Below are positions 2,169 through 63,913 of a stretch of DNA of 64,000 bases, piece by piece. Positions within the stretch are counted from its first letter, which is position 1; every line of letters starts with the position of its first letter. Below the pieces are notes generated by a model. It saw only the letters and a program-made list of their open reading frames with translations. It had not been told where the DNA came from and made no database searches. The position numbers and the translations under genes were made by a program. The stretch comes from Clostridia bacterium (lineage in GTDB: Bacteria; Bacillota; Clostridia; Oscillospirales; Acutalibacteraceae), in assembly GCA_017452785.1 (NCBI GenBank), contig JAFTLT010000034.1:1-64000 (forward strand). The letters are read 5' to 3'.

Positions 2169-3152
2169 TTATTCCCACTCTATCGTTCCTGTGGGCTTGG
2201 GAGTGATGTCGTAGAGCACTCTGTTGATGCCCTCAACTTCCCTTGTGATGCGGTTTGTGATGTGGTGCAGCACTGCATAGGGAATCTCTTCAATTGTTGC
2301 TGTCATTGCATCCTTTGTGTTGACAGCTCTGATAATTGCAGGCCAACCCTCATATCTTTTCTCGTTTCTCTGGCCAACGCTTTTCATGTCGGGAATTGCA
2401 ATAAAGTACTGCCATACCTTTTCAGCAAGGCCGTTTTTGTCGAATTCTTCTCTGAGGATTGCATCAGCTTCACGAAGTGCATGTAGTCTGTCTCTCGTTA
2501 TAGCACCAAGACATCTTACACCGAGACCGGGACCGGGGAAGGGCTGACGATAAACCATGTTGTGGGGAAGGCCCAGTGCCTCGCCAACAACTCTTACTTC
2601 GTCTTTATAGAGGAATTTAACCGGCTCAACAAGCTCCATCTTCATATCATCGGGAAGTCCGCCATCATTGTGATGAGCTTTGATGCCTTTTTTGCTTTCG
2701 ATAATATCGGGATAAATTGTGCCCTGAGCAAGATAATCTATACCGTCAAGCTTGCGTGCTTCTTCTTCGAAAACTCTGATGAACTCAGCGCCGATTATCT
2801 TACGCTTTTTTTCAGGGTCGCTGACATCCACAAGTTTATCAAGGAAACGGTCAGTTGCGTCAACATAAATAAGGTTTGCATCAAGTCCGTCTTTGAAAAC
2901 TTCAATTACGTTTTCACTTTCATTTTTGCGCATAAGGCCGTGATTAACGTGTACGCAAACAAGCTGCTTACCGATTGCCTTAATAAGAAGCGCTGCAACA
3001 ACTGATGAGTCAACACCGCCTGAAAGTGCAAGAAGAACTTTCTTGTCGCCTACCTGTGCACGTACAGCCTCAACCTGCTCTGCAATAAAAGCGTCTGCAA
3101 GCTCTTTGGTAGTGATGCGAGCCATGCTGTCGGGTCTTACATTTGAATCCAT
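2169..3152 (-). CDS. guaA: GMP synthase ATP-pyrophosphatase subunit lacking the glutaminase domain
   Basis: The 327-aa product covers the synthetase half of GMP synthase, which converts XMP to GMP with ATP and ammonia. The PP-loop SGGVDSS is at residues 44-50. The substrate and dimerisation region carries RQPFPGPGLGVR, and the protein ends with the conserved GTIEWE. Usual bacterial GuaA is about 510-530 aa with an N-terminal class I glutaminase. Here nothing precedes the ATP-PPase domain. The start is firm (GGGAGGA then ATG) and the next upstream gene is unrelated. It is therefore the separate-subunit (archaeal GuaAb-like) form or an ammonia-only enzyme. It follows the CofE-like gene by 59 nt on the same strand. 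An element is inserted directly at its 3' end. Confidence 0.93.
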   Translation of the reverse strand: MDSNVRPDSMARITTKELADAFIAEQVEAVRAQVGDKKVLLALSGGVDSSVVAALLIKAIGKQLVCVHVNHGLMRKNESENVIEVFKDGLDANLIYVDATDRFLDKLVDVSDPEKKRKIIGAEFIRVFEEEARKLDGIDYLAQGTIYPDIIESKKGIKAHHNDGGLPDDMKMELVEPVKFLYKDEVRVVGEALGLPHNMVYRQPFPGPGLGVRCLGAITRDRLHALREADAILREEFDKNGLAEKVWQYFIAIPDMKSVGQRNEKRYEGWPAIIRAVNTKDAMTATIEEIPYAVLHHITNRITREVEGINRVLYDITPKPTGTIEWE

Positions 3153-3211: not shown

Positions 3212-4405
3212 TCAGTTGGTGTAGTTATCGAAGTAACCCTGAACAAGAACTACGGGTGTACCCTTGTCACCTGAACCGCTTGTAAGGTCACAAAGTGAAC
3301 CGATAAGGTCAGTGAACTTTCTGGGTGTGGTACCCTGCGAAGCCATGTTGCCCACAAGGCTTGCATCGCCCTTTTCAGCAATACGCTTTGAGATAGCTGC
3401 CTTGAGCTCGTCACCTGTGAGGCCTGCAAAATCGTTATCTGCAAGGTACTTGAGCTTGAGCTCGTTGGGTGTACCCTCAAGACCTGCTGTGTAACCGGGT
3501 GATACACAAGGATCTGCAAGCTCCCAGATTTTGCCCTGAGGATCTTTGAATGCGCCGTCGCCATAAACCATAACTTCAATTTTCTTTCCGGTTGCTTCGA
3601 TAAGATACTGCTGAGTCTTGTTTACAAACTCATTGCAATCCTTCGGAAAAAGCTTGATTGTGTCTTCAGTTGACTTGTTTGAGCCGAGAAGACCGAAATC
3701 AGGGTTGAAGCCGTTGCCGTCAATTGATTCGGTGAGAATATCGTCCATGCCGTAAACGATCTTGGCACCTGCAGCCTTGAGAAGACGCTTTGTGCGTGCT
3801 CTTGTGTGAATATCGCAAGTGAGTACGCAATCAGTATAGTCGAGAATGCTCTTAGCCTGATTTGCAAAGATAACTTCGCACTCTGCACCTGCTTCGTTTA
3901 TAAGATTTGAATAGTAAGAAACATAGTCAACACCTGTGAACTCGTGCCTGTTTTCACCGAAAAGCTCACGGTACTTTGAAAGTGAAAGAACATCACTGTA
4001 AGGATTAACACCTGCTTCGTCAAGCTGATCATATGTGAGAAGGTGGTTACCAACCTCATCACTGGGATAAGAGAGCATAAGAACGATTTTCTTGCAGCCC
4101 ATAGCTATACCACGAAGACAGATTGCGAAACGGTTTCTTGAAAGAATGGGGAAAAGAACACCAACAGTTTCACCGCCAAACTTAGCTTTAACGTCTTTAG
4201 CTATTGCCTCAACAGTTGCATAGTTGCCCTGACTTCTTGCTAAAATTGACTCTGTAACTGCAACAACATCTTTGTCACGAAGCGGGAAGCCTTCACACTT
4301 TGCAGCCTCAACAACACTGTCGCAAACGATTTTTGCAAGGTCGTCACCTTCACGGATAATCGGGCAGCGGATACCTCTTGAAACAGTACCAGTTTTTCTT
4401 TCCAT
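3212..4405 (-). CDS. Coenzyme F420-0:L-glutamate ligase family protein (CofE-like)
   Basis: The 397-aa protein looks like the F420-0:gamma-glutamyl ligase superfamily. It has an N-terminal TVSRGIRCPIIREGDDL segment and a KDVVAVTESILARSQGN segment that match the family's nucleotide/metal-binding start, and it is much longer than CofE (about 250 aa). Clostridia of this type are not known to make F420, so the substrate is probably something else; related longer proteins exist as uncharacterised clostridial ligase-like proteins. AAGGGG precedes the ATG. It is upstream of guaA on the same strand with a 59-nt gap, so co-transcription is likely, which hints at a nucleotide or ammonia-linked ligation role. 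The family call is firmer than any function. Confidence 0.7.
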   Translation of the reverse strand: MERKTGTVSRGIRCPIIREGDDLAKIVCDSVVEAAKCEGFPLRDKDVVAVTESILARSQGNYATVEAIAKDVKAKFGGETVGVLFPILSRNRFAICLRGIAMGCKKIVLMLSYPSDEVGNHLLTYDQLDEAGVNPYSDVLSLSKYRELFGENRHEFTGVDYVSYYSNLINEAGAECEVIFANQAKSILDYTDCVLTCDIHTRARTKRLLKAAGAKIVYGMDDILTESIDGNGFNPDFGLLGSNKSTEDTIKLFPKDCNEFVNKTQQYLIEATGKKIEVMVYGDGAFKDPQGKIWELADPCVSPGYTAGLEGTPNELKLKYLADNDFAGLTGDELKAAISKRIAEKGDASLVGNMASQGTTPRKFTDLIGSLCDLTSGSGDKGTPVVLVQGYFDNYTN

Positions 4406-52570: not shown

Positions 52571-55500
52571 TTAATATTCCGCTTCGCCTTCGTAAACGAG
52601 CACAGCGTTACCTGTGAGATAAATGCCGTCGTCGTTATAGGTTACTGCAAGATCGCCGCCCTTGAGCTTAACAGTGATTTCCTCGCCCTTTTCGCAGAAG
52701 CCGTTAACAACTGCCGCAACAACTGCAGCACATGCGCCGGTACCGCAAGCGAAGGTTTCGCCGTTACCTCTTTCGTAAGCTCTCATCTTGAGTGTGTGGC
52801 TGTTTACCACTCTTACAAATTCGGTGTTGACTCTTTCGGGGAAGATGTCAGCATATTCAAAGAAGGGGCCTATTTCGTTAAGGTCAAGTGAGTCAATATC
52901 TCTCTTGAATACTACGCAGTGGGGGTTACCTACACCAAGGCAGGTGATGTTATAGCTGTCTGCACCGATAGTGATGGGATAGTCAATGATTTCACCCTCA
53001 TCAAGTGTGCAGGGAAGAGCCTTTGCATCAAAGGTGGGCTTGCCCATATAAACCTGAACTGCTGTTACTCTCTTGTTTGAAACATAGAGCTTGAGCTCCT
53101 TGATGCCTGCGCCTGTTTCAACAGTGAGTTCTTCTTTATCTACAATACCCTTATCATAGAGGTACTTACCGACACAGCGAATAGCGTTACCTGCCATCTT
53201 ACCTTCGGAGCCGTCACGGTTGAAAATTCTCATTCTTGCATCTGCAACATCTGAGTTTTCTATAAGCACTATACCGTAGCCGCCGATACCGCTGTGGCGG
53301 TTGCAGAAGTTAATGCAAAGTGATTCAGGGCAAGTGATGCTGCCGTCTCTGTTGTCAATAAAGATATAGTCGTTGCAGGTACCCTGCATCTTAGCGAATT
53401 TGAGAGTGTTTCTCGTCTTACGCATAGCGTTGATATCGATAAGCTCTGTGTTGAGCTGGCTGTAATTACTTGCCATAATATCAAGCATTGCGTTTGCAGT
53501 GTCAAGTGATGTGAAGCAGGCAATGCCAAGCTGCAGAGCCTTTCTGTGAAGGGCAATATAGTTATCCATTGTGGAATCAAAGAGAGCACCTGTGTAAACG
53601 ATGAAGTTTATCTTGCCGCTTTCAAGCAGCTTGAAGCAGTAGTCGCTTTCTGTGATACCCTTGACATAGGTTACGTTGATGCCGAGGTTAACGATTGCTC
53701 TTGCAGTGTCTTTAGCAGCATAGATGTTGATGCCGAGATCCTGAAGCTTCTTTGCAATTGAAACAATTTCGTCAAGATCATGCTCGTCAACGCTGAGAAG
53801 AACACCCATTTCTTTCTTATCGCCCTTAGCTTCAACCTTGATGCCTGATGATGTCAGACCCTTGAAGAGTGCTTCGTTGAGAGTCTTGCCAATGCCGAGA
53901 ACTTCACCTGTGGATTTCATTTCCGGTCCGAGATAGGAGTTAACGTCACTGAGCTTTTCAAATGAGAACACGGGAGCCTTGACTGCGAAGTAAGGCGGTG
54001 CTTCATAAAGACCTGTACCATATCCTAAATCCTTAAGAGGTGTGCCGACCATAACCTTTGTTGCAAGGTCAACCATAGGCACGTTTGTAACCTTACTGAT
54101 ATAGGGAATTGTTCTTGAAGCTCTGGGGTTAACTTCGATAACATAGAGCTGATTTTCATAGATAAGGTACTGAATATTAACAAGACCCTTGGTACCGAGA
54201 GCGAGAGCCAACTTCTCTGAGCAGTCGATAACTGTCTGTGTCATCTTATCTGTCAGTGAGAAGGGCGGATAAACTGCAATTGAGTCACCTGAGTGAACAC
54301 CTGCACGCTCGATGTGCTGCATGATACCGGGTATAAGAACGTCCTTACCGTCAGAGATTACGTCAACCTCGATTTCAGTACCGCTCATATACTTGTCAAC
54401 GAGTACGGGGTTTTCGATGCCTGTTGAAAGGATCTTCTTCATATATCTTTCAACTTCAACGTCGTTGTGTACGATTGTCATATTCTGACCGCCGATAACA
54501 TATGAGGGACGAAGAAGCACGGGATATGTCAGTCTGTTAGCTGCTTCGAGAGCTTCCTCAAGAGTCATTACACCGCAGCCCTGAGGTCTCATAAAGCCGT
54601 ATTTTTCAAGAAGTACATCAAACTTTTCTCTGTCTTCAGCTGTGTCAATACCTTCCTGAGATGTGCCGAGAATCTGAATTCCGTTATCGTCAAGGAATTT
54701 TGTCAGCTTGATAGCTGTCTGACCGCCGAAAGCAACAACAACACCGATTGGCTTTTCAACCTCAATGATGTTCATAACATCTTCATCACAAAGAGGCTCG
54801 AAATAGAGTCTGTCAGCAGTGTCATAGTCTGTTGAAACGGTTTCGGGGTTGTTGTTAACGATAACAACATCATAGCCAAGCTCTTTGAGAGTCCATACGC
54901 AGTGAACGCTTGAGTAGTCGAATTCGATACCCTGACCGATACGGATGGGGCCTGAACCGAGAACCATAACAACATCCTTACCTGAACGCTTGAAGCGTCT
55001 TGATTCGCAGGCTTTATCGTATGATGAATAGAAATAAGGCGTTGTTGCAGCGTACTCTGCCGCACAGGTGTCAACCATCTTATAGCTTGCCTGCTTGTGG
55101 AATGAAGCAGGGAATGTGCAGAACTTGCGAAGTGTCTTATCTGTATAGCCGAATTTCTTAGCTCTGAGATAGGTTTCTTCGTCAATCTCTTTGCCTTCAA
55201 TTTCATTTTCAAAATCAGCAAGATTGCGGAGCTTTTCAATAAACCACTTGTCAACTCTTGTGATTTCATTTATCTGCTCTGTTGAGATGCCTGCCTTGAT
55301 AGCCTCAAAGATTGTGAAGATTCTTCTGTCATCCTGCTCTTCGAGTCTTTCAAGTAAGGGCTTGTCACTTATGGGTGCGGCATTGAGTGTATCGAGAGAA
55401 ATCTCTGCGCCACGTACAGCCTTCATAATAGCTTCTTCAAAGCTTTGGCCGATTGACATAACCTCACCGGTAGCTTTCATCTGTGTACCGAGCTTACGGC

Positions 55501-56605
55501 TTGAGCCGATGAATTTATCGAAGGGCCACTTGGGGAACTTACAGACAACATAGTCGATTGAAGGCTCGAAGCAAGCACTTGTTTCGCCTGTGATGTCGTT
55601 CTGTATTTCGTCAAGGTTATAGCCGAGAGCCAGCTTCGTTGTCATCTTGGCAATGGGATAGCCTGAAGCCTTTGATGCAAGAGCTGAAGAACGTGAAACT
55701 CTGGGGTTAACCTCGATAACTGCATATTCAAATGAGTCAGGGTTGAGAGCGAACTGACAGTTGCAGCCACCCACAATTTTCAGTGCGCCGACGATGTCAA
55801 GAGCAGCCTGCTTGAGCATATTGTATTCCTTGCTTGAAAGTGAAAGTGCAGGAGCTACAACGATACTGTCGCCTGTGTGAACACCAACGGGGTCAAAGTT
55901 TTCCATTGAGCAGATTGCAATAGCATTACCTGCTGAGTCACGCATTGTTTCAAACTCAATTTCCTTCCAACCCTTGATATATTTTTCAACAAGAATCTGT
56001 GTAATGGGTGAAGCATCAAGACCAGTCTTTGCAATAATACGCAGCTCATCTTCGTTATAAGCAACACCGCCGCCTGCACCGCCAAGGGTGAAAGCAGGAC
56101 GAACAATAACAGGATAGCCTATCTGCTTTGCAATCTGAAGTGATGTTTCTATATCATATGAGATTTCAGAGGGAATGCAGGGCTGATTGATGCTCTCCAT
56201 TGTGTCTCTGAAAAGCTGTCTGTCTTCAGCCTTGTCTATAGCTTCAACGTCAGTACCGATAAGCTGAACACCGTTTTCCTGTAAAAAGCCTTCCTTCCAA
56301 AGCTGCATTGAGAGAGTCAGACCAACCTGACCGCCGAGACCTGCAAGAAGTGAGTCGGGTTTTTCGAGTTTAATAATTCTTTTAACTGTTTCTGTTGTCA
56401 GAGGCTCAAGATAAATTTCATCTGCAAGAGCCTTATCTGTCATAATTGTTGCAGGGTTGGAGTTAACAAGAACAACATTCACGCCTGCCTGCTTGAGAAC
56501 ACGGCAAGCCTGTGCGCCTGCATAGTCAAATTCGGCAGCCTGACCGATAACGATAGGGCCTGAACCGATAACAAGTACTTTTTTAATATCCTTATTCAGC
56601 GGCAT
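52571..56605 (-). CDS. carB: Carbamoyl phosphate synthase large chain fused to diaminopimelate epimerase
   Basis: The 1344-aa protein is a fusion. Residues 1 to about 1067 are a complete CarB. It has two ATP-grasp halves, each opening with a Rossmann motif (KVLVIGSGPIVIGQAAEFDY and VVMVLGSGPIRIGQGIEFDY), and the C-terminal MGS-like regulatory domain (GVLLSVDEHDL..., IVYTGALFDST). From about 1068 (LKFAKMQGTCNDYIFID) a complete DapF follows, with both catalytic cysteines: AGNAIRC (Cys1144) and FACGTGAC (Cys1287). It should make carbamoyl phosphate for arginine and pyrimidines, and interconvert LL- and meso-diaminopimelate for lysine and peptidoglycan. No linker, stop or frameshift lies between the parts. 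GAGGAG precedes the ATG; carA ends 3 nt upstream. Confidence 0.93.
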   Translation of the reverse strand: MPLNKDIKKVLVIGSGPIVIGQAAEFDYAGAQACRVLKQAGVNVVLVNSNPATIMTDKALADEIYLEPLTTETVKRIIKLEKPDSLLAGLGGQVGLTLSMQLWKEGFLQENGVQLIGTDVEAIDKAEDRQLFRDTMESINQPCIPSEISYDIETSLQIAKQIGYPVIVRPAFTLGGAGGGVAYNEDELRIIAKTGLDASPITQILVEKYIKGWKEIEFETMRDSAGNAIAICSMENFDPVGVHTGDSIVVAPALSLSSKEYNMLKQAALDIVGALKIVGGCNCQFALNPDSFEYAVIEVNPRVSRSSALASKASGYPIAKMTTKLALGYNLDEIQNDITGETSACFEPSIDYVVCKFPKWPFDKFIGSSRKLGTQMKATGEVMSIGQSFEEAIMKAVRGAEISLDTLNAAPISDKPLLERLEEQDDRRIFTIFEAIKAGISTEQINEITRVDKWFIEKLRNLADFENEIEGKEIDEETYLRAKKFGYTDKTLRKFCTFPASFHKQASYKMVDTCAAEYAATTPYFYSSYDKACESRRFKRSGKDVVMVLGSGPIRIGQGIEFDYSSVHCVWTLKELGYDVVIVNNNPETVSTDYDTADRLYFEPLCDEDVMNIIEVEKPIGVVVAFGGQTAIKLTKFLDDNGIQILGTSQEGIDTAEDREKFDVLLEKYGFMRPQGCGVMTLEEALEAANRLTYPVLLRPSYVIGGQNMTIVHNDVEVERYMKKILSTGIENPVLVDKYMSGTEIEVDVISDGKDVLIPGIMQHIERAGVHSGDSIAVYPPFSLTDKMTQTVIDCSEKLALALGTKGLVNIQYLIYENQLYVIEVNPRASRTIPYISKVTNVPMVDLATKVMVGTPLKDLGYGTGLYEAPPYFAVKAPVFSFEKLSDVNSYLGPEMKSTGEVLGIGKTLNEALFKGLTSSGIKVEAKGDKKEMGVLLSVDEHDLDEIVSIAKKLQDLGINIYAAKDTARAIVNLGINVTYVKGITESDYCFKLLESGKINFIVYTGALFDSTMDNYIALHRKALQLGIACFTSLDTANAMLDIMASNYSQLNTELIDINAMRKTRNTLKFAKMQGTCNDYIFIDNRDGSITCPESLCINFCNRHSGIGGYGIVLIENSDVADARMRIFNRDGSEGKMAGNAIRCVGKYLYDKGIVDKEELTVETGAGIKELKLYVSNKRVTAVQVYMGKPTFDAKALPCTLDEGEIIDYPITIGADSYNITCLGVGNPHCVVFKRDIDSLDLNEIGPFFEYADIFPERVNTEFVRVVNSHTLKMRAYERGNGETFACGTGACAAVVAAVVNGFCEKGEEITVKLKGGDLAVTYNDDGIYLTGNAVLVYEGEAEY

Positions 56606-56608
56606 TGT

Positions 56609-57640
56609 TTACTCCTCCATTACTTTCAAAAATTCTGCGATAATAGCATCTGTGGGCTCAAACTGAACTGAGTATGCCTTATCTGCTTTATAAGCGATAC
56701 CCTCAACAGTACCGTCATTGACATTGAAGTAGCTGATTTCGCCCTTCTTTATGCTGTCTTTGCAAACAACATAGCCGTGATTCTGTGCTGTGATGAGAGT
56801 TCTCAGAGTACCAACAACCTTTGCAGGCTGATTTGAGCCGTGATGACCGTAGGGAAGCTTCACTGTGTCTGCGCCCTGAGAAAGAGCCATAAGCTGATGA
56901 CCAAGACCGATACCGAACATGGGGAGCTTGCCGAAGAGCTTTGCAATTTCAGCAGCAACCAAAGTGCACTCCTTCGGATCACCGGGTCCCTCGGTGAAGA
57001 TAACGCCGTCAGCACCGAGAGCGAGGATATCCTCTGCCTTGAAGTTATAGGGCATTACAGTTACCTTGTAGCCTTTATCCATAAGAGTCAACTCAAGATT
57101 TTTGCTTGAGCCGAGATCGACCAGAGCAACATGCTTTTTAATCTCTGTCTTGGGCAGATAAACACTGACCTCTGTGCCGCCTGTGTTCTTAACTGCATCA
57201 ACAATCCTGTAGTTTTTAATTTCATCAAGATTTGCAGGAACCTCGTCACAGATAGCTGCATTCATTGTACCCTTGCTTCTGAGGATATTTGTAAGCTCTC
57301 TTGTGTCAACGCCGTAAATGCCGGGAACATTCTTATCCTTAAGGAACTTATCTATATCATATTCACAGCGGAAATTGGCAGGCTTTTCGCACCATTCTCT
57401 GACAACATAGCCGCTAAGCTTGCTTTCGCCTATAAAGTCGCTTTCTATAATGCCGTAGTTACCTATCATCGGGAAGGTCTGCAGCACTATCTGACCGTAA
57501 TATGTGGGGTCTGTGAGAGTTTCAATGTAGCCAACCATATTTGTGTTGAATATAAGCTCGCCTACACTCTCCTTTTCAGCACCGAAAGCATAGCCTTCAA
57601 AAACGGTGCCGTCCTCAAGTACCAGATAACGTTTTTTCAT
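56609..57640 (-). CDS. carA: Carbamoyl phosphate synthase small chain with a lost glutaminase triad
   Basis: The product has 343 aa from ATG 57640 (AAAGAGGTG upstream). It has the CarA N-terminal domain (RYLVLEDGTVFEGYAFGAEKESVGELIFNTNMVGY) and the class I glutaminase fold (FTEGPGDP, GLGHQLMALSQGA, QNHGYVV, NVNDGTVEGIAYK). The nucleophile position reads GIGLGHQ, not GICLGHQ: Gly245 (codon GGT, 56906-56908) replaces Cys269 of E. coli. The QYHPEA motif reads QFEPTDA, so His353 and Glu355 are replaced by Glu and Thr. The subunit should not hydrolyse glutamine; it probably acts as a scaffold while CarB uses ammonia. It lies between argF and carB in one operon. Confidence 0.92.
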   Translation of the reverse strand: MKKRYLVLEDGTVFEGYAFGAEKESVGELIFNTNMVGYIETLTDPTYYGQIVLQTFPMIGNYGIIESDFIGESKLSGYVVREWCEKPANFRCEYDIDKFLKDKNVPGIYGVDTRELTNILRSKGTMNAAICDEVPANLDEIKNYRIVDAVKNTGGTEVSVYLPKTEIKKHVALVDLGSSKNLELTLMDKGYKVTVMPYNFKAEDILALGADGVIFTEGPGDPKECTLVAAEIAKLFGKLPMFGIGLGHQLMALSQGADTVKLPYGHHGSNQPAKVVGTLRTLITAQNHGYVVCKDSIKKGEISYFNVNDGTVEGIAYKADKAYSVQFEPTDAIIAEFLKVMEE

Positions 57641-57710
57641 TCGTAACACCTCTTTTTCACACCGGGTGTGAAATCCTTTCCGTTATATTTAAAGTAAATC
57701 TGTTAATTTA

Positions 57711-58616
57711 TCAGTCTATCATGCATTTTACAAGAACAGCCTTCTGAGCGTGAAGTCTGTTTTCAGCTTCGTCGAAGATTTCGTTTGCGTGCTCTTCAAA
57801 CACCTTAGCTGTGATTTCCTCCTCACGGTGAGCAGGCAGACAGTGAAGCACCATAACGCCTTCGTTTGACACAGCAACAACGCTGTCGTTGATTTGATAG
57901 TCCTTGAAGATTTTCTTTCTCTCTTCAGCTTCGCCTTCCTGACCCATTGATGCCCACACGTCAGTGTAAAGCACATCTGAGCCTGCAGCAGCTTCAAGAA
58001 TATTATCAGTGCAGACAAAGTCGCCGTTTTCCTTTGCCCATGCCATAATTTCTGCATCGGGCTGATAATCCTTCGGGCAGGCAATTGCAACCTTCATACC
58101 GGTTTTGATACCGCCGACGATAAGGCTGTTTGCCATATTGTTACCGTCACCTATATAGCAGAGCTTCTTACCTTCAAGTGAGCCTTTATACTCACGGATT
58201 GTCTGAAGATCAGCCAGTACCTGACAAGGATGACAGAAGTCTGTAAGACCGTTGATGATGGGGATTGAGCCGTACTTTGCCAAAGCTTCAACTTCACTCT
58301 GCTCAAAGGTTCTTATCATAATACCGTCAAGGAAACGTGAAAGAACTCTTGCTGTATCTTCTACAGGTTCACCCCTGCCGATCTGCAGCTCTTTTGAAGA
58401 AAGGAAGAGAGCCTGTCCGCCGAGCTCATGCATGCCGACCTCAAAAGAAACTCTTGTTCTTGTGGATGATTTTTCAAAAATCATACCGAGAGTCTTGCCC
58501 TCAAGAATAGGATGTCTGATACCCTTTTTCTTTTCTTCCTTGAGTCTGTCGGCAAGGTCGAGGGTGCTGATGATTTCCTCTGTTGACCAGTCGAGTAATT
58601 TAAGTAAGTGTTTCAT
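57711..58616 (-). CDS. argF: Ornithine carbamoyltransferase
   Basis: The 301-aa enzyme joins carbamoyl phosphate and ornithine to citrulline. Motifs are SSTRTR (carbamoyl phosphate), HPCQ, the ornithine-side DGNNMANSL (SMG-loop region) and HCLPAHR. The length is typical. AAAGGAG precedes the ATG. It is the first gene of argF-carA-carB::dapF; the 71-nt gap to carA has no terminator, so one transcript is likely. A consensus promoter with an ArgR-like sequence lies upstream. Confidence 0.96.
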   Translation of the reverse strand: MKHLLKLLDWSTEEIISTLDLADRLKEEKKKGIRHPILEGKTLGMIFEKSSTRTRVSFEVGMHELGGQALFLSSKELQIGRGEPVEDTARVLSRFLDGIMIRTFEQSEVEALAKYGSIPIINGLTDFCHPCQVLADLQTIREYKGSLEGKKLCYIGDGNNMANSLIVGGIKTGMKVAIACPKDYQPDAEIMAWAKENGDFVCTDNILEAAAGSDVLYTDVWASMGQEGEAEERKKIFKDYQINDSVVAVSNEGVMVLHCLPAHREEEITAKVFEEHANEIFDEAENRLHAQKAVLVKCMID

Positions 58617-59208: not shown

Positions 59209-60930
59209 TTAAGCAGTTTGAAGGTTATCAGACTCACTTCTGATTTCCTCCATAAGTGTTAATATTTCCTGTTCGGTAGGAATATCAATCATTCCCACAC
59301 CTGTAAAGTAAATATCAACTTTAACATGACAATGCCCGTCATATTTATCATTGTTGTGAATTTCTATTCTGCGTATTAATTTATTGACTATAGTTCTGTC
59401 AAGCTCTTGTATATCCGTACACTCACGAAGTGTGTTAAGGAGAAGTCTTAAATCGACTTTGTTTTGCTTATTTTCAGCAAGTCGATTTTCAGATAACTCA
59501 ACTTTTTGAATAAGCTCTGCCTGTTCCGCTTCATATCCGGTTACAAGTTTAATATAGCGTTCATTGGTAACTTTTCCCGTTACATTGTCCTCATACAAAT
59601 GAGCAATTATGGTATCAATATCCTCAATACGCTTTTTGCCGTTTTTAATTGATGATTCCAATTCGGCTAATTCTTTTTTATGAGCGTATCCGTTTTCTTT
59701 TGCAAGAAGATATAAAAATACAGGCTCAAAGTTCTGAACGAAAGCTGCTAAATCCTGCACTGCTTTCAGTACAACTTTCTGCAAAGAAACTTCTCTGATA
59801 TAATGAACCTGACACTCACCACGATTGCTTTTATACTTTGAACAGCGATAATGCTCTTGATTTGGCTTTAAGCTCTTGGCTGCTGCAAAGCTTAATTTCG
59901 AACCGCAATCATAACAATATACCAGTCCCGAAAACATACCAATTCGACCTGTTGCTGTAGGTCGCACTCTGTTTTCTCGGATTTCCTGGACTCTCAGCCA
60001 CATTTCTTCGGAAATTATAGCCTCTTGAGTATTGGGAATAATTTGCCATTTATCCTGTTCATTGTATATAGTCTTATGCACCTTATAGCTGACAGTTGTA
60101 GTTTTGAAATTCACCGTACAACCTGTATATTGCCTATTTTCCAGAATATGCACAACTGAACTGTCTTTCCAATGGTAAGGATTGGCTATTTTCTTATTTC
60201 CCCTTGGGGTACCGATTTCTCTGTAATATGCACTTGTTGTTAAGACCTTTTCTCTTTCAAGCTGTCTTGCTATCTGTTCGGGACCTTTTCCTCCAAGACA
60301 TAATGAGAAAATATATCTTACAATTTTTGCGGCAGGTTCATCAATAATCCATTGTTTCGGATTTTCCTTACTTTTAACATACCCAAACGGAACGGAAGAA
60401 GAAACTCTTTCACCTCTATCGGCTTTTGACTGCCATACAGCACGGATTTTCTTTGAAGTCTGAGCTGCATACCATTCATTAAATATATTAGAGAACGGCA
60501 TCAACTCTGTACCCGTGTTGCTGAAGGTATCAACATTTTCCTGAATTGCAATAAATCTGACACCCAAGGTGGGATACTGTATTTCAAGATACTTACCGAC
60601 CTCAAGATAGTTTCTTCCAAAACGAGATAAATCCTTTACAATAATCGTGCCGATTTCACCATTTTCAGCCATCCTTTGCATACGCTGAAAGTCAGGTCTG
60701 TCAAAAGTAGTACCTGAAATGCCGTCATCAACAAAGAACATTGTATTTCTATAACCTTGTTTTTTACAATAATCAAGCAAAATCTGTTTTTGATTAGATA
60801 TACTGTTACTCTCGTCTTCGTTGCGGTTTTTCTTCTTATTTTTGTCATCTTTAATATCTTCTACAGACAAACGGCAGTACAAAGCCGTTATTTTTTCGTT
60901 TTGTTGCCCGTTATTATTTACTGTTGCCAT
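59209..60930 (-). CDS. Large serine recombinase of a clostridial mobile element
   Basis: The product has 573 aa from ATG 60930 (GAAAGGAGCG upstream). The N-terminal resolvase domain (about 15-165) has ITALYCRLSVED with the catalytic Ser in the LSxxD position, DDGISGTTFDRPDFQRM and IIVKDLSRFGRNYLEVG. A recombinase domain (about 175-285) is followed by a zinc ribbon (CYDCGSKL ... CSKYKSNRGEC) and a long coiled coil plus C-terminal DUF4368-like part. It matches the TndX/TnpX type that excises and inserts through a circle. It sits at the end of the element next to tRNA-Leu, with the mobilization genes upstream. Confidence 0.93.
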   Translation of the reverse strand: MATVNNNGQQNEKITALYCRLSVEDIKDDKNKKKNRNEDESNSISNQKQILLDYCKKQGYRNTMFFVDDGISGTTFDRPDFQRMQRMAENGEIGTIIVKDLSRFGRNYLEVGKYLEIQYPTLGVRFIAIQENVDTFSNTGTELMPFSNIFNEWYAAQTSKKIRAVWQSKADRGERVSSSVPFGYVKSKENPKQWIIDEPAAKIVRYIFSLCLGGKGPEQIARQLEREKVLTTSAYYREIGTPRGNKKIANPYHWKDSSVVHILENRQYTGCTVNFKTTTVSYKVHKTIYNEQDKWQIIPNTQEAIISEEMWLRVQEIRENRVRPTATGRIGMFSGLVYCYDCGSKLSFAAAKSLKPNQEHYRCSKYKSNRGECQVHYIREVSLQKVVLKAVQDLAAFVQNFEPVFLYLLAKENGYAHKKELAELESSIKNGKKRIEDIDTIIAHLYEDNVTGKVTNERYIKLVTGYEAEQAELIQKVELSENRLAENKQNKVDLRLLLNTLRECTDIQELDRTIVNKLIRRIEIHNNDKYDGHCHVKVDIYFTGVGMIDIPTEQEILTLMEEIRSESDNLQTA

Positions 60931-61016
60931 AATATTTCGCTCCTTTCTAACAACCAGGCACGGTAAAGACATTCATACTTTACCGTGTCCGGTTGAATAT
61001 TTCAAATGTGTGACAA

Positions 61017-61292
61017 TTAAACAGCCTGTGTCAATAATATCAAATCTTTAAATTGCTGTAAGACGGATTGTCTGCCGGTTGTATCAAAATGGGTTGATAC
61101 ATCAAAATACGTTCCGCCTACTTTTAATGAAAACTCATTAGTAGGCTGATGCACTATATTTCTTTTCTCCCTAACTGCTGTACTATAAGTTAAGATTTCA
61201 TCAGACAGATTTATTTCATCAGGATTTTCAATAGGACAAAATCCTTGAACAGTGCTGATGCTGTTTGTTAAATCAAGTTCGTTCACGCTCAT
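61017..61292 (-). CDS. Small TnpW-like element protein
   Basis: The protein has about 91 aa. The C-terminal half (FSLKVGGTYFDVSTHFDTTG then RQSVLQQFKDLILL) has the strand-helix pattern of TnpW-like small proteins next to serine recombinases in clostridial transposons; the N-terminal half is acidic and unconserved. The ATG at 61292 overlaps the ParB stop by one base (GTG 61295 is an alternative start). It is probably a DNA-binding or regulatory helper. Function is unproven. Confidence 0.65.
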   Translation of the reverse strand: MSVNELDLTNSISTVQGFCPIENPDEINLSDEILTYSTAVREKRNIVHQPTNEFSLKVGGTYFDVSTHFDTTGRQSVLQQFKDLILLTQAV

Positions 61293-62248
61293 CACCTCGC
61301 ATCCCTATCACGGCTTCGCTGTCTTTGTAAAACCTTGTAATAATAGTATTCGCAGGCCTTCATTACAAAGTTTTCAAGGTCACTTTCCTTAACTTTTGGA
61401 GCAACCTTTTGTAAGCGTTCAACTGAGAATTTTACTGTAGGCTTCTGATTTGCCTTTTCCTCAACTAAGATTGCACCTATATGCTCAGGTGTTAAGTCTT
61501 CCTCTCTGCTGATTGCACGAAGCCTATGTGCCTGAGATAAATTCGGAGTAGCATCACAGACACGGATTTCTTCAACTAAATCAGCCTGTTCCACCTCATT
61601 TAGATAAGAGAGTTCTACTGCAGGGGTAAATGCAATTCGTCCTTCGTCAACAAGGTCAAGTAGTTCAGGTATGAGATTTGTAAGACGAATATATCTTTGT
61701 ACCTGTCTGCCACTTTCGGTTTCTGAAACGAGGTTAGCACTCTCCAACTTCCCGACAAGTTGTCGGGAAGTTAAATCTGTTCTTTCACCTTGACTTTTAA
61801 TTGCTTCAAGCTTCATCTTGTATGCGTGGGCTTTTTCCGAGGGTAAAACGTGCTCTCTCTGCAAGTTAGCATCAACCATTGCAATGACGGCTTCTTCATA
61901 GGTGAGTTCATAAATGAAAGCAGGTATCAATTCAAAGCCTAATTTCTTAGCCGCATAAAATCTCCTGTGTCCTGAAATAATTTCATATTCCGTGCCGGAA
62001 ATTTTACGAACAGTAAGAGGAGTAAGAATACCTCGCTCATCGATACTGTCAATAAGGGTCTGCATTTCCTCATTGTCAATTACCTTGTAGGGATGATTTT
62101 CAAAAGGTCTCAAATACTCAATGGGTATTTTATTAGCCCACACATATTCTGTGCGGGCTTTCTGTACTTTGTCGTATAAGGTTTCTTTTGTGGGATCGTT
62201 TTCTTCAATCTCACGGGGATATACTTTTGATTTTTGTTTAATAGCCAT
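61292..62248 (-). CDS. ParB/RepB/Spo0J family protein of the element
   Basis: The 318-aa protein has the ParB N-terminal nuclease/CTPase-like domain (about 40-125): ENHPYKVIDNEEMQTLIDSI, the GISGHRRFYAAKKLG-type motif (EIISGHRRFYAAK) and IAMVDANLQREHVLPSEKA. An HTH region (about 145-215) follows. It is probably used for regulation or partition of the circular element form rather than for chromosome segregation. Its stop overlaps the start of the TnpW-like gene and it follows the relaxase gene by 1 nt, so all are coupled. Confidence 0.88.
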   Translation of the reverse strand: MAIKQKSKVYPREIEENDPTKETLYDKVQKARTEYVWANKIPIEYLRPFENHPYKVIDNEEMQTLIDSIDERGILTPLTVRKISGTEYEIISGHRRFYAAKKLGFELIPAFIYELTYEEAVIAMVDANLQREHVLPSEKAHAYKMKLEAIKSQGERTDLTSRQLVGKLESANLVSETESGRQVQRYIRLTNLIPELLDLVDEGRIAFTPAVELSYLNEVEQADLVEEIRVCDATPNLSQAHRLRAISREEDLTPEHIGAILVEEKANQKPTVKFSVERLQKVAPKVKESDLENFVMKACEYYYYKVLQRQRSRDRDAR

Positions 62249-62249
62249 A

Positions 62250-63614
62250 TTATCGGCTCCTTTCTATTTTTCTAATTTTATTCATTTCTGCCTGATGCTC
62301 TTTTTGTAAGAGCTCATACAGGTGTGGAGATTTATCAAGAATATTCTCGGCCTGTTTAAGTTTCTTTCTCAAAGGCGTGATCTCTTGTGTTATCTCCTTA
62401 CGCATAGCTTTGTACCTCTCTTTATCTTCAGGAGTATTTGCTCTGCGTTTTTTGTTGTCTGCCTTGCTTCGTTTTTCTTCAAGCTCGGCAATTTTTGCTT
62501 TGGTTTCATCAATGGTGACTGTTAAATCATCAGTAGTCTGAATCTGATTGTCGGTCAAGAAATGATAGTCAGCAACATACTGCTTGATGTCTTTTGCGGC
62601 ATGCCTCATTTCGGGAGTTAAGAGCAATGCGTCTGCAACTTCCTTTAACAACTGAAACACCAAGATTATTAAGAGGAACATAGTGTTTACATAAATAACC
62701 TCAGGTCGTTTACCTTGTTCAATGCCGAACTCTATTTTTTTTCTGACAGATTCAAGAAGAAAGCATCTGCGTCTTGCGTAGAAGAAGGTGTTCCAATCTG
62801 CAAGATGGTGTCCGCTGTAATAGGTTTCGTTGAACCTTTTCTCTATACCTTCTACGGTGTAGCCAAGACCTTCAACCCTTACACCGCTTTCCCAATCCTT
62901 TGCCTTGATAGTGAATCGCCTGTAATCAACCTCGTATCCCATAGTGAAAAGAACTCTTCTGAATTCGTCCCAACTTGTAGCAACAGTAAGACAGATTTCA
63001 ATATCTTCTTTGAGCATATCTCTGTGGGTTTTCTTGCCTTGCTTATGAAGCCAATAAGCAGCTTTCTCACCGCCGTAGAAGGGAGCATTTTCAAGAACTG
63101 ATTTGCCACGTTCTTTGCAGATAGCATCAGAAATCTCACGGAGCTTGTAGTGGTCTGAAATATGATTTTCAAACTTTCTGCCTGTTCTGAAAGAAACAGA
63201 ATTAACGACAAAATGATTGTGCAGGTGGTGATGCTTATCAAGGTGAGTTGTTACTACAATCTCATATTCATCACCCCACATCTTTTTAGCTGTTTCAATA
63301 CCTATACTGTGACACTCTTCAGGTGTTACTTCATTTTCTTTGAAGCTCTGAAAGCCGTGGTAAGCCACATTACCGCCAAGCTTTCCGTAATGAAGTTTGG
63401 TTGTCATCATATGCTCATAGGCTCGTTGTACAGGACCGTTGATAGCTGACACATAAAGCTTCTCATCGGTTTTCTTATCGTTCTCGGCATATTGAAGGGT
63501 TTTGTACAAATCCGCATCAAGGTATTTCTTATCAATGGTTTTATCAGGATTTTCAGCATACTGAATAACCTCTTTAAGTCGGCTCTTTACGGGCCAGAAT
63601 CCTGTGGTAGCAAT
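62250..63614 (-). CDS. MobA/VirD2-type relaxase, apparent AUU start
   Basis: The relaxase has 454 aa if translation begins at ATT 63614. The N-terminus (ATTGFWPVKSRLKEVIQYAE) matches the family start M-A-T-T-x-x-W-x-V, but the start codon is ATT and no ATG, GTG or TTG exists before the upstream in-frame TGA. AGGAGG lies 10 nt upstream; another ATT at 63617 has 7-nt spacing. The catalytic metal-binding motif is HLDKHHHLHNHFVVNSVSF, and NVAYHGFQSF carries the conserved early region. The C-terminal coiled coil (EEKRSKADNKKRRANTPEDK) is basic. It nicks oriT and pilots DNA into the recipient. It overlaps the mobC gene by 28 nt. Confidence 0.85.
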   Translation of the reverse strand: MATTGFWPVKSRLKEVIQYAENPDKTIDKKYLDADLYKTLQYAENDKKTDEKLYVSAINGPVQRAYEHMMTTKLHYGKLGGNVAYHGFQSFKENEVTPEECHSIGIETAKKMWGDEYEIVVTTHLDKHHHLHNHFVVNSVSFRTGRKFENHISDHYKLREISDAICKERGKSVLENAPFYGGEKAAYWLHKQGKKTHRDMLKEDIEICLTVATSWDEFRRVLFTMGYEVDYRRFTIKAKDWESGVRVEGLGYTVEGIEKRFNETYYSGHHLADWNTFFYARRRCFLLESVRKKIEFGIEQGKRPEVIYVNTMFLLIILVFQLLKEVADALLLTPEMRHAAKDIKQYVADYHFLTDNQIQTTDDLTVTIDETKAKIAELEEKRSKADNKKRRANTPEDKERYKAMRKEITQEITPLRKKLKQAENILDKSPHLYELLQKEHQAEMNKIRKIERSR

Positions 63615-63913
63615 AATTCATTCACCTCCTTTTTCGGCGAGAGTATCTCGCTGTGGATTTCATCAATTAGAGTGAGCAACTTAGCTTCAGTTTCGGGTGT
63701 CATTTCATAATTGCAGATTTCACAGAGTTTGGCATAGAAAGTAAAAAAGGCATCAGGCAACACCGTTCTCGGTGCAAATCCCAATGCTCTCTTTGTCACA
63801 TATTCAGTTGTAGTTAACCCACATTTTGAAGCATAGCGTTCAATCTTCTTTTTGTTTTCAGGTGTTACCCTGATTTCAAGCCTTCGTGTTTTGGCTTTTA
63901 GTGTAGTATTCAT
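63587..63913 (-). CDS. MobC-type relaxosome accessory protein
   Basis: The 108-aa protein has an N-terminal ribbon-helix-helix motif (RRLEIRVTPENKKKIERYASKCGLTTTEYVTKRALG, about 10-45) and a helical C-terminus. MobC proteins bind oriT and help the relaxase melt it. Its 3' end overlaps the start of the relaxase gene and contains that gene's AGGAGG site, so the two are translationally coupled. GGAAAGGAA precedes the ATG. Confidence 0.88.
   Translation of the reverse strand: MNTTLKAKTRRLEIRVTPENKKKIERYASKCGLTTTEYVTKRALGFAPRTVLPDAFFTFYAKLCEICNYEMTPETEAKLLTLIDEIHSEILSPKKEVNELLLPQDSGP

Follow-up and report, generated by a model that had tools for sequence, protein, structure and literature searches.

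Carbamoyl phosphate feeds the biosynthesis of both arginine and pyrimidines. The available excerpts of the human CPS1 structure paper state that glutamine is used by all types of carbamoyl phosphate synthetase (CPS) except CPS1 (PMC4655335), and those of a review assign the bacterial enzymes to the glutamine-using class, CPS II (PMC6022934). In Escherichia coli CarAB, glutamine hydrolysis requires Cys269 and His353, according to the excerpted source (PMC6245113), and variants of CarAB with a blocked or perforated tunnel are described in the same CPS1 excerpts as retaining ammonia activity (PMC4655335). Here we analyzed a stretch of 64,000 nucleotides (hereafter, the window: positions 1 to 64,000 of contig JAFTLT010000034.1, assembly GCA_017452785.1) from a Clostridia bacterium of the family Acutalibacteraceae, whose carA gene encodes a CPS small subunit devoid of the entire glutaminase triad. 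Judging from the sequences, we consider it probable (about 0.8) that the locus encodes an ammonia-dependent bacterial CPS whose small subunit is a pseudo-glutaminase of structural role, several glutamine-fed steps having been dropped in the lineage. No prior account of a bacterial CPS with a dead glutaminase subunit was found in the open-licence literature, subscription journals being outside the search.

The gene in question is the following:

56609..57640, minus strand: CarA, CPS small subunit, glutaminase-dead, 343 aa from the ATG at 57640.

An alternative GTG start at 57649 would extend the protein to 346 aa; the earlier note did not name the strand. The deduced protein scored 341.9 bits against the TIGR01368 profile (cut-off 307.35), exceeded the cut-offs of both PF00988 and PF00117, and retains the E. 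coli CarA fold across the entire chain. Hereafter, CarA sequences with Cys, His and Glu all in place, and the genomes encoding them, are referred to as canonical, and those of triad-less CarAs from the genus of the window as dead; individual genomes and loci are designated G and L, respectively. Reference residues such as Cys269 are numbered as in E. coli CarA, against whose chains the window protein was aligned. The altered positions, with the residues found in the alignment of CarA rows, are:

56906..56908, minus strand: codon of Gly245, at the nucleophile Cys269; Gly in 14 of 14 dead-clade rows, Cys in 51 of 51 canonical rows.
56657..56659, minus strand: codon of Glu328, at His353.
56651..56653, minus strand: codon of Thr330, at Glu355.
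56645..56650, minus strand: site of a deletion of 7-8 residues relative to canonical relatives, with the loop bearing Gly359 and Pro360 gone.
57104..57106, minus strand: codon of Ser179, at Lys202, which we take to be a tunnel residue; Lys or Arg in 51 of 51 canonical rows, Ser or Thr in 14 of 14 dead rows.
57503..57505, minus strand: codon of Thr46, at Ser47, presumably a glutamine-binding residue; Ser in 50 of 51 canonical rows, Cys in nine, Thr in four and Ser in one of the 14 dead rows.
56990..56992, minus strand: codon of Glu217, at Asn240; Asn in 51 of 51 canonical rows, Glu in 14 of 14 dead rows.

The earlier note on this DNA had described a CarA without any of the three catalytic residues, and the alignment bears this out, with Cys269 replaced by Gly245, His353 by Glu328 and Glu355 by Thr330; its reference motif is given as QYHPEA, whereas E. 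coli CarA itself reads QGHPEA. The Cys-His-Glu triad characteristic of CPS II is thus absent from the window protein (Gly, Glu, Thr), and its glutaminase domain, judged from residues alone, is inactive, as is characteristic of CPS I. With the nucleophile, the general base and the third triad residue all gone, the glutaminase chemistry is predicted to be lost, and the interpretation of the earlier note is supported at this level. As for the deleted loop, the structure entry 1m6v is titled as a G359F mutant. Across the dead clade, the residues at the His353 and Glu355 positions are variable: none of the 14 genomes on the tree has His at 353, and a single one, G005, retains Glu at 355.

Alignment of CarA from many relatives, as the earlier note had proposed, showed that triad loss is common to 15 of the 35 genomes of the genus. 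The sampling comprised 60 genomes including that of the window (50 of 60 with a match), named contigs (32 loci) and stretches fetched later, and yielded 74 distinct sequences, of which 51 were canonical, 21 lacked the Cys and two kept the Cys with His or Glu changed. Besides the 15 dead genomes, the genus includes 12 canonical ones, six without a PF00988 match and two with an unread triad, namely G010 and G021, in both of which a contig end truncates CarA (in G021, to the point that just 42 residues were seen). On the CarA tree (72 rows, triad columns included), 14 dead CarAs form one clade (100/99), all with Gly at the Cys position; the fifteenth, from G014, was read at a contig end and stands outside the tree. 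Sister to this clade is the CarA of G052, from another family (95/98). Loss of the Cys requires a minimum of seven changes on this tree, a count that omits L030 and L254 (Cys kept, His or Glu changed) and rises to nine if they are counted as changed. The other Cys losers are L058, L059, L063 and the CarAs of G038, G053 and G057; their exact placement, as well as that of G052, is unsure, because all lie on flagged long end branches. Taken together, the occurrence of such losses in more than one lineage points to a recurrent path rather than a freak.

A sequencing error or a chance open reading frame was ruled out, as the loss is common to 15 genomes, and a pseudogene was ruled out by the ratio of nonsynonymous to synonymous substitution rates (dN/dS). 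For the glutamine amidotransferase (GATase) domain of CarA this ratio was 0.04-0.18 in close pairs, which means that the domain is under purifying selection. A second, intact carA serving the same CarB, which would have spoken against the earlier note, was not found in the assembly of the window (2.44 Mb, 74 contigs, 89.8% complete; no second PF00988 match in a profile search), and 13 of the remaining 14 dead genomes likewise have none. The exception, G024, carries on other contigs an additional CarA that is intact, a CarB of its own without fusion partner and part of a guaA GATase domain, and is likely a mixed bin; its dead and intact CarAs and two kinds of CarB were seen on separate contigs (L082, L134 and L152).

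The rest of the locus is preserved around the altered subunit:

57711..58616, minus strand: ArgF, ornithine carbamoyltransferase, first gene of argF-carA-carB::dapF.
52571..56605, minus strand: 1344-aa fusion of an intact CarB with a DapF-like domain.

Consistent with the earlier claim that the operon position and the remainder of the fold are kept, the order argF-carA-carB::dapF of the window is retained in all 15 annotated loci (12 dead, three canonical), with no extra gene of at least 90 aa between argF, carA and carB in any of them. The dead-clade CarB retains 358 of 367 near-invariant columns, with zero clear replacements. A different possibility is that CarA has gained another function, as a regulator or a binder of another ligand, with any ammonia role secondary. 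The clade-wide fixed replacements of Asn240 by Glu and of Cys269 by Gly (14 of 14 rows) could indeed reflect a reshaped pocket; however, CarA still sits between argF and carB in every annotated locus, and the residues at positions 353 and 355 differ among dead CarAs, as in a site under relaxed constraint, so that we regard such a new function as very improbable.

The dead-clade pyr operon (pyrC-pyrK-pyrD-pyrF-pyrE-pyrB) contains neither carA nor carB in the five genomes examined, 14 of the 15 dead genomes contain a single CarB, and as many yield at least two carbamoyltransferase matches (G002 yields one). Therefore, one CPS seems to supply both the arginine and pyrimidine pathways in the dead clade.

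Three other genomes of the genus have CarB and no CarA. In G007, G032 and G034 (96-98% complete; L116, L117 and L118), which do not form one group on the pyr-operon tree, carB directly follows pyrC in the pyr operon, and no PF00988 match was found genome-wide. The pyr-operon CarBs without an adjoining CarA (13 loci, including these three) keep 341 of 367 near-invariant columns, with 20 clear replacements; a canonical CarA of the arg cluster, where present, might serve them.

The loss in CarA is both clade-wide and recurrent, and other glutamine amidotransferases are missing from the same genomes, all of which the earlier note had missed. The first of these is GuaA, present in the window as:

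2169..3152, minus strand: GuaA synthetase without GATase domain, 327 aa.

A GuaA GATase domain over the cut-off was found in one of 15 dead genomes (G024, the suspected mixed bin) versus 11 of 12 canonical ones (all except G001), and the GuaA synthetase itself in 10 of the 15 dead genomes (not in G003, G008, G011, G018 and G022). In ten dead-clade GuaA loci read, one per genome, the open frame extends just 43-67 residues ahead of the SGGVDSS motif, leaving no room for a GATase domain. CTP synthase (PyrG) was found in none of the 15 dead genomes versus all 12 canonical ones, and PF13522 matches numbered 0-2 in dead genomes, except for four in G024, versus 2-5 in the twelve canonical ones. The joint loss of the CarA triad, the GuaA GATase domain and PyrG is one lineage's pattern. 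Genus-wide, CTP synthase (PF06418) was not found in 19 of 35 genomes, six of them 95-98% complete. Adjoining the GATase-less GuaA of the window lies a gene for an F420-0:gamma-glutamyl ligase-like protein (3212-4405, minus strand; PF01996), and a similar-looking protein of 397 aa, identified by eye, precedes guaA in L273 and L275.

The absence of PyrG could also be taken as a sign of a general decay of nucleotide synthesis in genomes turning auxotrophic, with CarA on its way out, all the more so as no match for CarA, CarB or carbamoyltransferase was found in G027, another member of the genus. Such decay is unlikely in view of the purifying selection on CarA, the intact CarB, the presence in 14 of the 15 dead genomes of two or more matches for a carbamoyltransferase, and the retention of pyrC to pyrB in all five pyr operons examined.

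A comparable change concerns PurF, which in the dead clade was read in G002 and G006 and was not located in the genome of the window. In both loci (L265 and L266) the PurF-like protein has Gly2 aligned with Cys1 of the Bacillus subtilis enzyme, and its gene lies directly before a purM-like gene (purM assigned by eye); against the purF model the Cys-less protein scored 172.9 bits, below the cut-off of 350. In the canonical loci L269 and L270, the Cys-less gene lies ahead of both a PurF with the Cys and a gene resembling purM, and in G026 and G019 (L271 and L272) PurF has its Cys and no Cys-less gene adjoins it. In G010 and G001 (L267 and L268), a longer opposite frame masks that of PurF. PurF-like proteins starting with MGGFF and without the N-terminal Cys were seen at 11 loci (L117, L119, L120, L122-L124, L126, L128, L129, L265 and L266).

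Because the triad is gone, CarB is intact and CarA is conserved, we infer that the enzyme is fed by ammonia and that CarA serves it structurally; the substrate, the role of CarA and the entry route given here are all of this kind. CarB would act as a normal two-ATP synthetase, and CarA as a pseudo-glutaminase that has kept its fold, lost glutamine splitting and presumably holds CarB in working shape. Free NH3 from the medium or cytosol would reach CarB directly, its entry perhaps eased by an opening where the tunnel-wall loop was deleted, and the single CPS would feed both ArgF and PyrB. More broadly, the lineage may have switched from glutamine to ammonia for CPS, GMP synthetase and probably the amination of phosphoribosyl pyrophosphate (PRPP). 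At about even odds, this lineage of herbivore-gut Clostridia abandoned glutamine as the donor in making carbamoyl phosphate, GMP and phosphoribosylamine by means of ammonia-type versions (a pseudo-glutaminase CarA or none, GATase-less GuaA, PurF without Cys1), dropped CTP synthase, and kept GlmS and HisH glutamine-fed.

Several points weigh against the ammonia-based interpretation. The Km of ordinary bacterial CPS for ammonia is high, so that ammonia use would call for a lower Km or an abundant supply. Glutamine metabolism persists, given that glutamine synthetase (PF00120) was matched in 35 of 35 genomes, that GlmS has its catalytic Cys at all ten dead-clade loci read, and that HisH of the genome of the window, assigned by eye on the basis of its operon, is intact with its Cys kept. 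Short and full GuaA copies occur together in nine of 12 canonical genomes, so that a short GuaA alone is no proof of loss. The dead clade is one lineage, and its shared losses are therefore not independent events. The pattern is also imperfect: G001, with a canonical CarA, has no GuaA GATase domain over the cut-off, and G027 and G028, without a CarA match, have PyrG, so that the absences of CarA and PyrG are not always coupled. Finally, the assemblies are incomplete (89.8% for that of the window).

The ubiquity of glutamine synthetase and the intact HisH and GlmS of the genome of the window would likewise fit a system still fed by glutamine, in which another glutaminase, acting in trans on CarB or via the dead CarA, supplies the ammonia. 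PF00117 matches in the assembly of the window were, however, limited to CarA and HisH (other glutaminase families were not searched for), no additional gene of at least 90 aa intervenes among argF, carA and carB, and the loop bearing the tunnel-wall residues is deleted, which makes a glutaminase in trans an unlikely explanation. It is less likely than an ammonia-fed CPS, as are decay and a new function of CarA.

The DapF-like part of the CarB fusion (52571-53401, minus strand) deserves a separate description. The fusion also occurs in L034-L060 and L066-L085, from this genus and other Clostridia, including Evtepia gabavorous (L056). The first catalytic Cys of DapF, which we take to be Cys73, is Ala in 31 and Gly in two of the 33 fused rows scored (some of them duplicates), and the second is retained in the fused rows scored except L057 (Ser); the scan used a fixed pattern, and some fused loci, such as L036, L047, L055 and L058, went unscored. 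A standalone DapF (L134) has the first catalytic Cys, and no further DapF besides the CarB fusion was found in the assembly of the window. Upstream of argF, positions 59209-63913 (minus strand) hold look-alikes of a serine recombinase, a ParB-like protein, a relaxase and a small mobilisation protein, a gene set that resembles an integrative element (named by eye, without a family search).

If correct, the ammonia-fed interpretation would mean that the CPS I condition arose independently, and more than once, in bacteria, with comparable stages of loss ranging from single-residue changes through to CarB alone. It would also make testable the role of CarA once glutamine cleavage is gone and the route of free ammonia to CarB.

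Among known systems, vertebrate CPS I, a liver enzyme, resembles the enzyme described here in keeping a glutaminase-like domain that is catalytically dead and, as predicted for the window's CPS, in using ammonia. The parallel drawn in the earlier note is apt as a functional likeness and otherwise too modest: human CPS1, in the excerpts available, differs by a Cys to Ser replacement (Ser294), whereas here the whole triad, further site residues and the tunnel-wall loop are affected. Moreover, CPS1 is one chain and requires N-acetylglutamate, according to excerpts of both sources (PMC4655335, PMC6022934), whereas the bacterial glutaminase-like and synthetase parts are separate subunits encoded by separate genes. 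Unlike E. coli CarAB, a bacterial CPS II, the present enzyme has lost the triad, other site residues and the tunnel loop, and its CarB is fused to a DapF-like domain. The single-domain, ammonia-dependent NAD synthetase, as described in part of its source (PMC3376133), offers a similar choice between glutamine and ammonia inside one amidating family, although its glutaminase domain is absent and that of CarA persists as a pseudoenzyme. Crenarchaeal PurF', which has no N-terminal Cys and is presented in excerpts of its source as a possible ammonia-dependent PRPP aminotransferase (PMC3261824), is Cys-less like the PurF-like protein found here; it is, however, archaeal, and according to the same excerpts each species also has a Cys-bearing PurF, an arrangement seen in the canonical L269 and L270 and not in the two dead-clade loci read. 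The carbamate-kinase-like CPS of Pyrococcus likewise makes biosynthetic carbamoyl phosphate from ammonia, according to the excerpted review (PMC6022934), but it has an unrelated amino-acid-kinase fold and is not a CarB. Family and fold thus place the window protein among the CarAs, whereas the missing triad sets it apart from CPS II and its architecture from CPS I; the dead-clade CPS, by inference from its residues, would work like CPS I.
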